48,372 bases of DNA from Acholeplasma sp. (lineage in GTDB: Bacteria > Bacillota_I > Bacilli_A > ML615J-28 > CAG-698). Below are positions 12,802-23,634 of this stretch, in pieces. Where the stretch lies: contig DUOW01000024.1 in the NCBI GenBank assembly GCA_012838635.1, positions 1 to 48,372 of the forward strand, given 5' to 3'. The position numbers were made by a program, and so were the translations under genes. A model generated the notes under the pieces. It did not search any database. It was not told where the DNA came from and worked only from the letters and a program-made list of their open reading frames with translations. The first letter of the stretch is position 1. Every line of letters begins with the position of its first letter.

Positions 12802-15102
12802 CTAATAGAAAGTTTTCGGATGACGTTCAAATATAAACTCTAAATTGTCTTTCTTAAACTTTTCTTTTACTTCATCAATTAATTTACTTAATTTTTCATA
12901 ATCATTAGTTTTAATAATTAACTGCATTCCTTGATATCGCCTTGTATATTTAGGGCCTAAAATCTCACTGTCAGTAAAAATACTCCTAAATACTTTTCTA
13001 AAGTAATATGCAGCATGATATCTCTTACTATAATCACCAGCAATAATCAATCTCATTATCTCTAACTTTGGGGGATAATTTAAAGCATTTCTTTGCCTAA
13101 TTTCTTGGTAATAAAAGTTTTGATAATCATTCTTTAAACCTAAAGTAATACTATAATGATCTAAATTATATCCTTGTAAGACTAAACCTAAACCATCTTT
13201 ATTTAACACCTTAACAATATTTAAAAATAATGTTTCAGATGCACGATAATCACCATAGTTTAAAATATTATCTGAGTTAATTAAACCTACAAAACTAATA
13301 TTAGGATAATTAAGCAAATCAAAAACTAAATTAGTTCCAATAATAAAGTCAACTTTTTGCTCTTCGATTGCTAGTACTGCTTCACTATATTTACTATAGT
13401 TACTCATTGTCTCGGCATGAATTACTAAGTACTTTTTATCGGGATAATATTTCTTTAAATCTTCTTCTAAACTCTCTAATCCTAAATTGAAAAAACTTAA
13501 TTTCTTACTTCCACAGCTAGGACATTTTAAGTTAGAATAAGGAACTTTATAATCACAATAATTACAGCTCAATTCATTTTTATTTTTATTGTAAGATAAA
13601 CTAATCTTACATTTAGGACACTTAATAACTTCAGAACAATTATTACACATAACCATTTCACTATAATTCTTTTGGTTTAAAATTAAAGCAACCATCTTCT
13701 TATTATTAAAAGCTATTTGGATCTTCTCTTTTAAAGTATTAGAAATTAAAGGACTAACTCTAGCTATTTCTTTTTTTAAATCAACTAAAGCATATTTATT
13801 ATTCTCCTTTTTTAAATTCTCTAATAAAATGTAATTGTTCTTTAAATAATTATCATAATCATCAACACTTAAAGTTTCATTTACTAAAATAAGTTCTGCT
13901 TTATGATATTCCATTCTCCACTTTAAAACTTCTAAAGTCAAGAACTTTGGATTTTGTTCATTAATATAGGCTGTATCATTAGAATCAAAAATAACAATTA
14001 AACCTAATTTTTCTAAAGGTAAAAAGCTACTCGAAATTGTCCCAACAACAACATCTACATTACCTTTTTTAACTTGCATATAATTATCAAAATATTCATT
14101 ATTGCTTAATGAAGAATTAAAACAATAGATTCTTGCATTAACTAATCTTTTTTCTAAAAAATCATATACTTCAAAAGACTGAACAATTGATTTTGTTAGG
14201 ATTAAGATTTGTTTATTATCCATAATTGTTTTTGAGATTACATCTTCTAAAAACTTACACTTAAATTCTAAATCATCAGTTACTAAAAGATAAGGTTTAT
14301 TCTTATTAGCATCATATTTGGCTTTAATGTCTTGTTCTAAAGAAGTATAAGTAACATAAGAAGATTGAAATCTTTTAAGATTATCTTCTTCTTTAATAAC
14401 TTCTTTTACTTCCAAAAATCCTTCTTTTCGTAAATCATTAATTAAAAAGTGACTAGTATTAGTATTTAAACTTATCTCCTCTATTGTTAGCCCTGGATTG
14501 CAAGAAACATACTCAATAATCCTTTTTCTTTTAACTGTTAAATTTGTAGTATCTTTATTTTCACTTACATAGTAAATATTTTGATATTTATTTTTACCAT
14601 AAGTATAGTGGTTATACTCAATAGCTAAATTACCTTGTTTTAACTCCTTCGCAATTCTGCTACTATAATCAATCATTGAACTATTATATTCAATCTTCGA
14701 TTTACCTTTAAAAAGCATTGCTACATTGCTATCTAACTTTTCTAAATGAACAACTTTCAAATATTTACGATATTTAGTTTTTAAAAAAGCCGGATACATT
14801 AGATCTAAAGCAGAAACAAGTAAACTTTTTGTTTCATCAGAAATCTTCTTAGCCAGTTCTATTTGTTCTTCAGTAAGTTGTTTATCAAAATCATAAACAT
14901 CTAAAATCTCTTTGATATTTCCTGAATAAGAAGTCTCAGAGCTAATTCTAATTACATAACCAATAATTTGCCTACTTCCAAATTCAACCAATACCCTACT
15001 TCCTATATCTACATATTCTTCAAAATGCTTAGGAACCTCGTAAGTAAATAAAGTATCAGTATTAGCATTTCGAACATCAACTAACACTTCTGCGAACTTC
15101 AT
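12802..15102 (-). CDS. priA: PriA-like primosomal protein with a degenerate helicase domain
   Basis: 766 residues with the full PriA plan: N-terminal 3'-end binding domain (1-55, TLFTYEVP...VLVEFGSRQIIGYV), a winged-helix region, two helicase lobes, a zinc module and the C-terminal domain (NYPPKLEIMRLI ... EILGPKY). All four CxxC pairs survive (Cys486/489, 495/498, 513/516, 527/530). The ATPase motifs do not: the Walker A site reads VTDDLEFKCKF (274-284) with no GxGKT; the DEEH box is FDSN (372-375); SATPS is NETLS (408-412); QVAGRAGR is NIVKVLNKDG (628-637). Without these it should not hydrolyse ATP or unwind DNA. The reading frame is intact, so a structural role in loading the replicative helicase is plausible. 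It overlaps the upstream kinase gene by ATGA. Confidence 0.9.
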   Translation of the reverse strand: MKFAEVLVDVRNANTDTLFTYEVPKHFEEYVDIGSRVLVEFGSRQIIGYVIRISSETSYSGNIKEILDVYDFDKQLTEEQIELAKKISDETKSLLVSALDLMYPAFLKTKYRKYLKVVHLEKLDSNVAMLFKGKSKIEYNSSMIDYSSRIAKELKQGNLAIEYNHYTYGKNKYQNIYYVSENKDTTNLTVKRKRIIEYVSCNPGLTIEEISLNTNTSHFLINDLRKEGFLEVKEVIKEEDNLKRFQSSYVTYTSLEQDIKAKYDANKNKPYLLVTDDLEFKCKFLEDVISKTIMDNKQILILTKSIVQSFEVYDFLEKRLVNARIYCFNSSLSNNEYFDNYMQVKKGNVDVVVGTISSSFLPLEKLGLIVIFDSNDTAYINEQNPKFLTLEVLKWRMEYHKAELILVNETLSVDDYDNYLKNNYILLENLKKENNKYALVDLKKEIARVSPLISNTLKEKIQIAFNNKKMVALILNQKNYSEMVMCNNCSEVIKCPKCKISLSYNKNKNELSCNYCDYKVPYSNLKCPSCGSKKLSFFNLGLESLEEDLKKYYPDKKYLVIHAETMSNYSKYSEAVLAIEEQKVDFIIGTNLVFDLLNYPNISFVGLINSDNILNYGDYRASETLFLNIVKVLNKDGLGLVLQGYNLDHYSITLGLKNDYQNFYYQEIRQRNALNYPPKLEIMRLIIAGDYSKRYHAAYYFRKVFRSIFTDSEILGPKYTRRYQGMQLIIKTNDYEKLSKLIDEVKEKFKKDNLEFIFERHPKTFY

Positions 15103-15965
15103 TTTTCCATCACCCCTAAAGCAATAGCACCATATAAAGCAGAGTTATCTTTTAAGACCGGGCTTACTATTAACTCCTCTATACTTTTAACTGCCTTATA
15201 TGTATAGTAATTGTTATTTAATTTTCTAAACTCTTCCCTAATAAAAGGAAGTAGTTTTTCTTGATGACTTACACCACCACCAATAATAATCTTATCAGGG
15301 GCAAATGTTAAGTATAAATTATAGATTCCTTGAGCGATATAATTAGCTTCTCTTCTTAATAAATCTTCTCTTAAAGAAAGTTCTTCATAACTTAAATTAT
15401 ATCTTTTATCTAAGCTGATTCCTGAGGCTAAACCTTCAAAACAATCACTATGGAAAGGACAAGTACTCTCGTATTTATCATCTTTATCCCTTTTTAATAT
15501 CATATGCCCAATCTCAGGATGATGATGACCTTGAAGTAAGTTACCATTATAAACTATCCCACCACCAATACCTGTACCAATAGTTACATAAATTAAATTT
15601 TGATATTTCTTTTTATAACCATAATAGTACTCACCAAAAGCTGATGCGTTAACATCAGTTGTGATTTTTACAGGACACTTAAGAGCATCTTTTAAAGTTT
15701 TTAAGATATTGTAATTAGCCCAAATCTTTTTTGGTGTATCTAAAATCATCCCGTATCTTTCATCAGTTTGATCTAAACAAATCGGACCAAAACAACCAAT
15801 ACCTAAAGTCTTAATGGGAAAAGATGAAAAGAACTTCAAAACCTTTTCCATTGTCTCTTCAACTGTAGTTGTTTTGATTGTAGTATCTTGTAAGATAACT
15901 CCACTTGATGTAGCTACAGCACATTTGAATTTTGTACCACCAGCTTCAATTGCTCCAATTAACAT
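15099..15965 (-). CDS. ROK-family fructokinase
   Basis: 288 residues. ROK sugar kinase with the N-terminal phosphate loop IEAGGTKFK (6-14), catalytic Asp104 in TTDVNAS, and GTGIGGG (130-136). The zinc site is the fructokinase type: His154 in EIGH, Cys169, His172 and Cys175 in CPFHSDCFEGLASG, as in the Bacillus YdhR/GmuE group, rather than the CXCGxxGCxE of glucokinases. I place the start at ATG 15965, 8 nt after AGGAGGA; an upstream in-frame start would put that ribosome site inside the gene. First gene of the priA-fmt-pgpA-like unit, a mixed metabolic and replication operon. Substrate assignment is by family. Confidence 0.88.
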   Translation of the reverse strand: MLIGAIEAGGTKFKCAVATSSGVILQDTTIKTTTVEETMEKVLKFFSSFPIKTLGIGCFGPICLDQTDERYGMILDTPKKIWANYNILKTLKDALKCPVKITTDVNASAFGEYYYGYKKKYQNLIYVTIGTGIGGGIVYNGNLLQGHHHPEIGHMILKRDKDDKYESTCPFHSDCFEGLASGISLDKRYNLSYEELSLREDLLRREANYIAQGIYNLYLTFAPDKIIIGGGVSHQEKLLPFIREEFRKLNNNYYTYKAVKSIEELIVSPVLKDNSALYGAIALGVMEK

Positions 15966-15988
15966 AAGGATAGTCCTCCTTTTACTAT

Positions 15989-16017
15989 ATTTTACCATAT
16001 TTCTTGTAAAAAAACAA
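15989..16017 (-). promoter_or_regulatory. Promoter of fructokinase-priA-fmt-pgpA-like
   Basis: Minus strand TTGTTT (16017-16012), 17-nt spacer, TAAAAT (15994-15989) with an extended -10 TGGTAAAAT. Confidence 0.65.
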
Positions 16018-18698: not shown

Positions 18699-19310
18699 AT
18701 CTTCAGAGGTACAAAAATGAAAAAAAGGGCATTTTTCACATAGAGGACCTCTTGCCTTACAAATATACCTTCCAAATCTTAGTAATCTTAAATGCAATAT
18801 CCCCCATTTTTCTTGTTTAAATATCTTCATTAAATCTTCCTCAACACCTAATGTAGTTTCAGCACGAGATAATTCTAATCTTCTTGCTACTCTAAAGACA
18901 TGAGTATCTACTGCTATCCTTGGGATCTTAAATCCTTCTGATAAAACTACATTAGCTGTTTTTCGCCCTACTCCCGGAAGACTCATTAACCATTTTATAT
19001 CAGGCTCAATCACATTATTGTTTTCTAAAATGATTTTAGAAGTTTCAATAATGTTTTTTGCTTTTGTATTATATAAACCTATTGTTTTGATAATTTCTGC
19101 TACATCTTCAAAATCTGCTTTTGCTAAAGCTTTTGCATCAGGATATTTTTCAAATAACTCTTTGGTTACATTATTAACAGCTATATCTGTTGTTTGCGCC
19201 GATAAAATAACGGCTACTAATAACTGAAAAACAGATCCATATTCTAAATCACCTTTATTACTAGGAAAAATTTTCCCTAAAGTATCATAGATATAATCAA
19301 TTCTTTCCAT
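18681..19310 (-). CDS. nth: Endonuclease III
   Basis: Bifunctional DNA glycosylase/AP lyase for oxidised pyrimidines. 209 residues. The helix-hairpin-helix is LPGVGRKTANVV with catalytic Lys117; the catalytic Asp135 is in AVDTHVFR. The [4Fe-4S] cluster cysteines are Cys184, 191, 194 and 200, the standard C-x6-C-x2-C-x5-C. It overlaps the end of dnaD by 14 bp; the dnaD-nth order is conserved in Bacillus. Last gene of the fakA unit. Confidence 0.96.
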   Translation of the reverse strand: MERIDYIYDTLGKIFPSNKGDLEYGSVFQLLVAVILSAQTTDIAVNNVTKELFEKYPDAKALAKADFEDVAEIIKTIGLYNTKAKNIIETSKIILENNNVIEPDIKWLMSLPGVGRKTANVVLSEGFKIPRIAVDTHVFRVARRLELSRAETTLGVEEDLMKIFKQEKWGILHLRLLRFGRYICKARGPLCEKCPFFHFCTSEDKKELV

Positions 19311-19911
19311 GATATTCTTTCCAAAGATCTTGTAAAGCTGTCATATCATCATCACTTTTTTCACTATACTTATTTACTAAAGCACGATCAATATACTTAA
19401 CACCTTTGTTTTTACTAGAAAGCGCCTTATTTACAAACTCTTCAATATCTTTGTATTCATAATCAAACTCATAAAACCATTTGCGTACAATCTCAACATC
19501 AACTGGAGATAATACTTTATTAAATCCTTGTTCTAACTTTTTAACTGTAGCTACAAGCCTATTTTCTTTTAGTTGATTATCTTGATTATTATCTTCGCCA
19601 TAAAGTAGGTTAGCTAACTTTTCATAAGTTCCATCTAACGAATATAACTCTTTTTGTGAAGCAAAATCTATTTTCAAAAACCCAAAGTCAATTAATCGCA
19701 TTAAATAATTAGCAAGATCAGTTTCACTAACACTCATATTTTTAGCTAACTTTTTTACCGAAATTGATGTAATGTCTTTTTGTAATAAACGATTAATTTT
19801 AATTAAAATCATTGCTTCTGTTTCATTAAGTTTTAAGGATGCATATTTTTCAATAATTAAATTATCAAAATTTATGAGATTATTTTTAATTAAATCATAA
19901 TACTTTTCCAT
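19297..19911 (-). CDS. dnaD: DnaD-like primosome protein
   Basis: 204 residues. In Firmicutes DnaD joins PriA-dependent and DnaA-dependent loading of the replicative helicase. The N-terminal part is a winged helix (SVKKLAKNMSVSETDLANYL), and the C-terminal DnaB_2-like domain ends with VKYIDRALVNKYS, close to the usual YIxxIL block. ATG follows GAGGATAGTT, with the SD overlapping the rnc stop. Its presence matters for interpreting the ATPase-dead PriA: the loading partners of PriA appear to be retained. Confidence 0.88.
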   Translation of the reverse strand: MEKYYDLIKNNLINFDNLIIEKYASLKLNETEAMILIKINRLLQKDITSISVKKLAKNMSVSETDLANYLMRLIDFGFLKIDFASQKELYSLDGTYEKLANLLYGEDNNQDNQLKENRLVATVKKLEQGFNKVLSPVDVEIVRKWFYEFDYEYKDIEEFVNKALSSKNKGVKYIDRALVNKYSEKSDDDMTALQDLWKEYHGKN

Positions 19912-21606: not shown

Positions 21607-23634
21607 CTATTCTAAAAGTTCCCTTTTTTCTTTAAAATCTTCGTCGACAATATTATATAACATTTCATATTCTTCTGTAAAGATTAATCCAGAATCGATG
21701 ATTCGATCTGCTTCATCATTACATAAATTTAATAACTCACGGTCATTAATAATATTAGCAAACTGAAAATCAATAATTCCACTTTGCTTAACACCATAAT
21801 ATTCACCAGGTCCCCTTACAAGCAAGTCTTCTTCAGCTAAAGTAAAACCATCAGAATTAGATGCAATTAACTTAAGTCTAGCAATAGCAGTATCAACAGT
21901 AGTATCAGATACCAAAAAGCAGTATGCTTGATAGTCAGATCTTCTAACACGACCACGCATTTGGTGAAGTTGAGCAACACCAAAACGATCAGCATCTAAA
22001 ATAACAATTGTTGTGGCATTATGAATGTTAACACCAACTTCAATGACACTTGTAGAGATCAAGATTTTGATTTTGTCATCTTTAAAGTTTTTCATTACTT
22101 CTTCTTTTTCTTCTTGTTTTAGACGACTATGAATTAGGCCAACATCACAAATATCTTTAAATAATTCTTTGTATTCTAAATAGATATTAGTTACATTCTT
22201 TAAATCTAAACTTTCAGATTCTTCAATTGCGGGACAAACAACATAGATTTGTCTACCACGATTAATTTCTTCCTTTAAATGATTCATAACTTTATCTTTA
22301 TCTTTGTACTGTAAATACTCAGTAATAACTGGTTTTTTATTACCTGGCATTGTTTTGATTGTAGAAATGTCCGAATCTCCCATAACCGAAATTGCCAAAG
22401 TCCTAGGGATTGGTGTAGCTGTCATTTTTAAGTGATCAATCTTTTGACCTTTTGCTACCATTTCAGCTCTTTGTTTTACCCCAAAACGATGTTCTTCGTC
22501 CGTAACTACAAATCCTAAGTTTTGGAAATTAACATCTTTTTGGAATAAAGAGTGTGTCCCAACAATAATATTAATGTTTCCTTTTTCTAATCCTTTTAAG
22601 ATTTCTCTTCTTTCTTGCAATGGAACACTAGCAGTTAATAGTTTTAAACTTAAATCAGTATTTTTGAAAGCTGCTTTTAAAGTGTCAAAATGTTGATTTG
22701 CTAAAATCTCCGTTGGCACAAGCATTGCTGCTTGATAACCAGCAGTGTATGCTGCACATAAGGCAATTGCCGCAACAACAGTTTTACCAGAACCAACTTC
22801 ACCTTGTAACAATCTACTCATTTTGTAATTAGAATTCAAATCTCCTAAAATTTTATCAACTGCTTCTTTTTGATCTTTTGTAAGTTCAAAAGGTAAATCT
22901 TTAATAAATTGTTCTACTTTTTCTTTATCAAAGTTAATTTTTAATCCTTCTAAATGATTCTTTCTCATATATAAAGAGTACTTAATCTTTAGTTGATATA
23001 AAAGTAACTCTTCAAATTTAATTCTCTTAATTGCTTTTTCAACTTGGTTCATCGTATCAGGAGTATTTACAAACTTAATTGCTTTATCTAAATCAATTAA
23101 ATCATGTTTATCTTTTAAACTTTGAGGCAAATAATCTTTAATATCTTTTCTGTGTTCTCTTAATAGCTTTTGTTTGATTTCAAATAGTTTATCATCAGTA
23201 ATGCCATCAATACCAAAAATGGGACTAATGTTATTGCTATACTCATCTAGTTCAATTTCACTAGCTGTAAAGTTTTTCAAATCTTTTTGAAACTTGCCAG
23301 TTACACGAACGTAAACACCATAGTTTAATTTAGAGCGCAAAAAATGACGATTAAAAATCGTTACTCTTACCTTATTGCCATCACTATCAATATAAAAGTT
23401 CATTACTGTTAGTTTACTTCTAGCATTATATACATAAGGTTTTCCTTGAACAATTCCAGAAATAGTAATTGTCTGTTCTAATGGTGCTTCTGATGTTGAG
23501 ACTATTGTATAATCATTAAATCTTTTAGGATAATAAGTCAGTAAATCCCATACAGTATTAAGTTTATGTCTTTTAAAAACAGCAATATTTCTTTTAGTAA
23601 TATATTCTTTTTCAGTTAATGGGATATTTTTCAA
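21607..23634 (-). CDS. recG: ATP-dependent DNA helicase RecG
   Basis: Remodels stalled forks and recombination intermediates. 675 residues, near the usual length. Wedge/OB domain in the first 240 residues, Walker A GEVGSGKT (278-285), DEEH (379-382), and helicase C with VIEVGVNIHNAT and QMRGRVRRSD. All motifs are intact, in contrast to priA here. Translation starts at TTG 23634, 5 nt after AAGGAGGAA. A terminator-like hairpin lies between fakA and recG, so expression probably depends on readthrough. Confidence 0.96.
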   Translation of the reverse strand: MKNIPLTEKEYITKRNIAVFKRHKLNTVWDLLTYYPKRFNDYTIVSTSEAPLEQTITISGIVQGKPYVYNARSKLTVMNFYIDSDGNKVRVTIFNRHFLRSKLNYGVYVRVTGKFQKDLKNFTASEIELDEYSNNISPIFGIDGITDDKLFEIKQKLLREHRKDIKDYLPQSLKDKHDLIDLDKAIKFVNTPDTMNQVEKAIKRIKFEELLLYQLKIKYSLYMRKNHLEGLKINFDKEKVEQFIKDLPFELTKDQKEAVDKILGDLNSNYKMSRLLQGEVGSGKTVVAAIALCAAYTAGYQAAMLVPTEILANQHFDTLKAAFKNTDLSLKLLTASVPLQERREILKGLEKGNINIIVGTHSLFQKDVNFQNLGFVVTDEEHRFGVKQRAEMVAKGQKIDHLKMTATPIPRTLAISVMGDSDISTIKTMPGNKKPVITEYLQYKDKDKVMNHLKEEINRGRQIYVVCPAIEESESLDLKNVTNIYLEYKELFKDICDVGLIHSRLKQEEKEEVMKNFKDDKIKILISTSVIEVGVNIHNATTIVILDADRFGVAQLHQMRGRVRRSDYQAYCFLVSDTTVDTAIARLKLIASNSDGFTLAEEDLLVRGPGEYYGVKQSGIIDFQFANIINDRELLNLCNDEADRIIDSGLIFTEEYEMLYNIVDEDFKEKRELLE

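Follow-up and report, generated by a model that had tools for sequence, protein, structure and literature searches.

A PriA protein predicted to lack ATPase activity is fixed across an order of Mycoplasmatota-type bacteria

The priA gene of the window, which is the whole 48,372-nucleotide stretch of an Acholeplasma sp. genome that was analyzed, encodes a full-length PriA in which helicase motifs I, II, III, and VI have been replaced, and judging by its sequence the protein very likely has no ATPase activity. We consider it probable that this PriA acts as an ATPase-dead scaffold, which would recognize forks and load the replicative helicase by way of DnaD, DnaB, and DnaI. The open reading frame starts with ATG and has no internal stops, and the source genome (G000) is 1.04 Mb in size and 98% complete. 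The gene and the parts of PriA that it retains are as follows.

12802..15102, minus strand: priA, very likely ATPase-dead (pseudohelicase) form, 766 amino acids (NF004066, E = 4.3e-120; TIGR00595 above cut-off)
14791..15090, minus strand: 3' DNA-binding domain (3'BD), amino acids 5 to 104, kept (PF17764, E = 3.9e-21), with Lys64 corresponding to E. coli Lys61
13942..13968, minus strand: aromatic-rich loop region, amino acids 379 to 387 (Tyr379 and Pro385 in 37/37 order members)
13513..13647, minus strand: cysteine-rich region with two zinc sites, amino acids 486 to 530, eight cysteines kept (present in all 37 PriAs of the order and all 76 comparators)
12805..13152, minus strand: C-terminal domain (CTD), amino acids 651 to 766, kept (dN/dS 0.040)

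The protein scored 277 bits against TIGR00595 (cut-off, 230) and 402 bits against PRK05580/NF004066, which is under the strict cut-off of 813 that the latter model sets for itself. A sequence search of the PDB returned the PriA structures 4nl4, 6dgd, and 8fak (E of about 1e-40), and the alignment extends across the sites where motifs II, III, V, and VI would lie. All eight zinc cysteines are present (positions 486, 489, 495, 498, 513, 516, 527, and 530), and the PriA zinc ribbon PF18319 was found above its cut-off. Thus, the original prediction that the PriA domain order, 3'BD, CTD, and four CxxC zinc pairs had been retained held for each of these elements. With the 3'BD, the two-zinc cysteine region, the full-length sequence and fold, and the locus and vertical descent of PriA all found, the gene is, on these grounds, a true, vertically inherited priA of its order. 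The Walker A GxGKT, Walker B DE, and motif VI arginine finger of an active SF2 DNA helicase were all absent, and the alignment places the former motifs as follows.

14251..14283, minus strand: former motif I (Walker A), amino acids 274 to 284, VTDDLEFKCKF for GVTGSGKTEVY; P-loop shortened from five to two residues in the model
13978..13989, minus strand: former motif II, amino acids 372 to 375, FDSN for DEEH
13870..13881, minus strand: former motif III, amino acids 408 to 411, NETL (NETLS from 408, for SATPS)
13312..13338, minus strand: former motif V, amino acids 589 to 597, GTNLVFDLL, with GT (589 and 590) kept and the K and G lost
13192..13221, minus strand: former motif VI, amino acids ~628 to 637, NIVKVLNKDG for the QVAGRAGR arginine-finger motif, replaced and shortened

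The original prediction had placed degenerate motifs I, II, III, and VI at these positions in an intact frame, and there we agree with it; its wider claim that every helicase motif had been replaced goes slightly too far at motif V, where the GT survives as the sole helicase-motif remnant in the protein.

An AlphaFold model of the window PriA, built from a 30-row alignment, had a pLDDT of 86.6, and its best Foldseek matches in the PDB were 4nl4, a PriA with ADP (E = 4e-42), and the fork-bound PriA 8fak (E = 1e-41). The model runs from a strand (271 to 275) through two residues (276 and 277) into a helix (278 to 294), whereas in the model of an intact control PriA (from genome G048) a five-residue P-loop (278 to 282) lies between the strand (272 to 277) and the helix (283 to 296). 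Since two residues stand in place of five, the phosphate-binding loop is closed in the window model. As far as prediction goes, the window PriA would therefore have a closed P-loop and an otherwise retained PriA fold.

The order was sampled with 43 genomes from two families (f1 and f2), 41 of which gave a PriA match, and motifs were counted in those 37 PriAs, from 21 genera of both families, whose sequence was readable and complete or nearly complete. The comparators were 76 PriAs from the same class, one of which (L045, on contig C34 of genome G016) is an intact PriA from a 3.5-kb contig of a genome that also holds a degenerate PriA; with a reported contamination of 6%, it probably is a contaminant. 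GxGKT, the motif II D-E, and GRxGR were found in 0/37 PriAs of the order and in 76/76 comparators, a contrast that chance could not produce. Motif III was kept in 6 of the 37 and the motif V GT in 23, and DEED or STPS can still be recognized in several f1 members; because these remnants of motifs II, III, and V persist, motifs I and VI appear to have been lost first, and the window lineage appears to be among the most eroded of the order. All 37 PriAs of the order share the eight zinc cysteines together with Tyr21 (E. coli Tyr18) and Lys64 (E. coli Lys61), and several CTD residues are likewise invariant. At the site equivalent to E. coli 3'BD residue Asp17, the window PriA has Thr; members of the order differ here, with Thr in 14, Asp in 14, Glu in 8, and Ser in 1, and the comparators are variable also. 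At the former P-loop site, S/T-N-D-E-x-F recurs as a consensus in family f1, in many cases with L-D-F after it, and is absent from f2 and from the comparators. In a PriA tree built without the motif columns, the order formed one clade among the PriAs of the class with a support of 100.

These counts bear on two other explanations. One is that ATP is still bound or hydrolyzed through a noncanonical site, as might be suspected from the lysine found in 15 of the 37 order members at the Walker A lysine position, and from the acidic or TPS remnants of motifs II and III in several members. However, none of the 37 has G, K, and T together, a motif II D-E, or GRxGR, and the P-loop is missing from the predicted structure of the window protein, so we regard residual ATP use as very improbable. 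The other is that the degenerate sequence reflects an assembly error or contamination, or that an additional, intact PriA takes over the function, a situation that G016 with its two PriAs seems to offer. Yet the G016 contig is tiny and comes from a partly contaminated assembly, and no other genome of the order has a second PriA. A PriA model search of the 98%-complete source genome likewise gave no second, motif-complete copy; the other matches were weak helicase-domain matches of at most 61.7 bits, the best of them the RecG open reading frame. This explanation has almost no probability left and is ruled out by 37 concordant sequences.

The nearest relative of the window PriA was 92% identical, the named locus at that identity being from Acholeplasmataceae bacterium isolate AS05jafATM_21; isolate names of this type occur in a biogas metagenome-assembled-genome (MAG) study (PMC7038595). 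Between this pair, the dN/dS of priA was far from the value near 1 of relaxed selection: it was 0.065 overall and 0.05 to 0.06 in the dead lobes (lobe 1, 0.052; lobe 2b, 0.059), with the CTD at 0.040. The neighboring genes gave similar values (fmt, 0.123; ROK kinase, 0.095; rpoZ, 0.052), and other close pairs of degenerate PriAs ranged from 0.06 to 0.20. Thus, the window priA is under strong purifying selection, dead helicase lobes included. In the other degenerate pairs, the former-motif codons had a dN of 0.04 to 0.25 (one near-identical pair showed no change), whereas the working-motif codons of intact PriA pairs evolved more slowly, with a dN of 0.007 to 0.09; faster former-motif codons are the pattern expected if the ATPase constraint alone had been lifted. 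A decaying pseudogene might be supposed in a reduced genome, given that PriA has been lost outright in related lineages (families f5 and f16) and that one related genome (G067) has a broken copy. However, the reading frame is intact in every complete copy from 21 genera, and the low dN/dS, the conserved zinc cysteines, and the confident fold all speak against decay. We give the pseudogene explanation a negligible probability, as it is ruled out by the dN/dS and the order-wide conservation.

In class-wide surveys of PriA in 296 and 395 genomes, weak scores flagged additional candidates. In family f10, the PriAs of genus g56 (L113, L114, L115, L117, and L118) lack motifs I, II, III, and VI as well as the second zinc site (C445, C448, C463, and C466 in E. 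coli) but keep the first. The tree without motif columns placed g56 inside f10 among intact relatives with a support of 99. A single loss shared by the order and this Acholeplasma group was rejected when the two were forced together (AU test, p-AU 0.0044, to be read with long-branch caveats), and on this phylogenetic evidence the motif loss in g56 is independent of that in the order. The genus appears to hold Acholeplasma laidlawii (PG-8A, G129), and two genomes with an intact PriA are presumably those of A. palmae and A. brassicae. L154 (G173:C40:53500-56700, family f19) is a very divergent 685-amino-acid PriA that lacks motifs I, II, III, and VI and keeps the eight cysteines; the other sampled f19 genera have intact PriAs, and the L154 branch is too long to be placed in the tree. 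It probably represents a third loss, and helicase-motif loss thus seems to have recurred at least once, and probably twice, beyond the order in the same class. Two further PriAs may be intermediate stages of erosion: L112 (G299, genus g134) is partly eroded, with DSDLDKTH for Walker A and without GRxGR, and L108 (G062, family f15) is partly eroded and without a normal motif VI. The surveys found no PriA match in the genomes of families f5 and f16, and a match to the PriA 3'BD was also absent from several reduced genomes elsewhere in the class, among them G125, G248, G295, G331 (genus g85), G061, and G072.

The window gene lies in the cluster recG-plsX-rnc-dnaD-nth-(rqcH)-gmk-rpoZ-ROK-priA-fmt, which includes two further genes of interest.

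19297..19911, minus strand: dnaD, for a primosome partner, in the gene neighborhood of priA (PF21984 DnaD_N, E = 6.7e-15; PF07261)
21607..23634, minus strand: recG, motif-complete SF2 helicase (PF00270, E = 3.5e-26; PF00271; PF17191)

RecG, which had been thought to keep its motifs, does so, with full DEAD and Helicase_C matches. The genes for DnaB (435 amino acids) and DnaI (273 amino acids) adjoin on another contig of the same genome, and the DnaI Walker A, GSYGVGKT, is intact; all three components of a firmicute DnaD-type primosome, DnaD, DnaB, and DnaI, are therefore present. Nearly all genomes with a degenerate PriA have two DnaB_2-domain proteins (DnaD and DnaB); the PriA-less genomes tested (G045, G057, and G068) have one each. 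Between rpoZ and priA (window positions 15099 to 15998) lies a ROK-family sugar kinase-like gene that overlaps the priA start by four bases, at the place where Bacillus has coaBC. Across 52 genomes of reduced Bacilli, the state of PriA did not correlate with RecG, whose wedge was found in 49 of the 52, and PriA motif loss showed no pattern with the loss of AddB. Most of these genomes, many with an intact PriA among them, had either no AddB or a strongly degenerate one.

The dead lobes could also have taken on a new role outside restart, such as a regulatory or repair scaffold, with restart proceeding by another route, and the f1 consensus at the former P-loop does hint at a rebuilt surface. 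However, the 3'BD, both zinc sites, the aromatic-loop tyrosine, and the CTD are conserved, and the whole set of DnaD, DnaB, and DnaI partners has been kept, making a role outside restart unlikely. Under the scaffold model that we prefer, the 3'BD, dead helicase lobes, zinc region, and CTD would recognize abandoned forks and D-loops, and PriA would serve as a passive platform that recruits DnaD and then DnaB and DnaI, which would load the replicative helicase. The nascent lagging strand would not be peeled back by PriA itself, and since the lagging arm would stay unopened, restart would begin from a single-stranded lagging template (gapped forks and D-loops) or another helicase would clear the arm. 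We infer the fork binding, the loading through DnaD, and this limitation of substrates. The original prediction of restart by a structural PriA that would cooperate with DnaD is thereby supported, with the amendment that the trait belongs to the whole order and is not particular to this gene. More tentatively, and with only a modest chance of being right, the PriA motor may have been repeatedly disposable in wall-less-type Bacilli, with several lineages each turning PriA into a passive loader, the ATP pocket of f1 having been rebuilt as a conserved contact surface (S/T-N-D-E-x-F) and restart running on DNA-structure recognition and the DnaI ATPase alone.

Within the freely accessible literature searched, we found no report that PriA had lost its motifs in Acholeplasma or in any other mollicute. 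As far as that literature shows, what is new is that the trait is fixed across a whole order of Mycoplasmatota-type bacteria that have a DnaD-type primosome, that the ATP site has been replaced completely, that the loss has recurred in the class, and that cultured species provide a contrast pair. These results address a puzzle, in that E. coli laboratory mutants can do without PriA helicase activity, yet nearly all bacteria conserve it. An entire order from which this activity apparently has been removed is a natural experiment, and the cultured acholeplasmas offer an apparent contrast between A. laidlawii, without the motifs, and A. palmae and A. brassicae, with them, in close relatives that allow fork processing, damage tolerance, and primosome assembly to be compared. 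The window protein also provides a PriA, predicted to be ATPase free, for structural work with DnaD.

An ATPase-free PriA as such is already known. Actinobacterial PriA (NCBIfam PRK14873) resembles the window PriA in being a PriA relative annotated as having no detectable helicase motifs. It has been described as a "smaller and very divergent" ortholog (PMC1193525). The window protein scored best with ordinary PriA models (402 bits against PRK05580 versus 123 bits against PRK14873), and the tree puts its motif loss on a separate branch of its class. The PriAs of Bacillus subtilis and Staphylococcus are orthologs with a similar cluster, gmk-rpoZ-...-priA-...-fmt, and the same partners, DnaD, DnaB, and DnaI. 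Unlike the window PriA, they are active ATPases and helicases with all motifs present. The B. subtilis protein binds to branched DNA and brings in DnaD and DnaB (PMC13220808). ATPase-deficient E. coli PriA still assembles primosomes (PMC4504706), and DnaB-loading assays use the K230A form of PriA (PMC10175261). The E. coli K230R and K230A mutants are ATPase dead yet primosome competent through a single engineered change, whereas the window PriA has a complete removal of the ATP site that was fixed naturally. The original prediction named the actinobacterial case as its precedent, and to this can be added a biochemically proven one, Deinococcus radiodurans PriA, which binds single-stranded DNA, forks, and its DnaB, and which showed no ATPase activity or unwinding (PMC4504706). 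Like the window PriA, it combines the PriA domain architecture with degenerate Walker A and B motifs. However, its changes are milder (a Walker A Lys-to-Arg substitution and a poor motif II) than the replacement of motifs I, II, III, and VI in the window protein, and Deinococcus has no DnaD route, whereas the window PriA, analyzed here by sequence, belongs to Mycoplasmatota-type Bacilli with a DnaD-DnaB-DnaI primosome.
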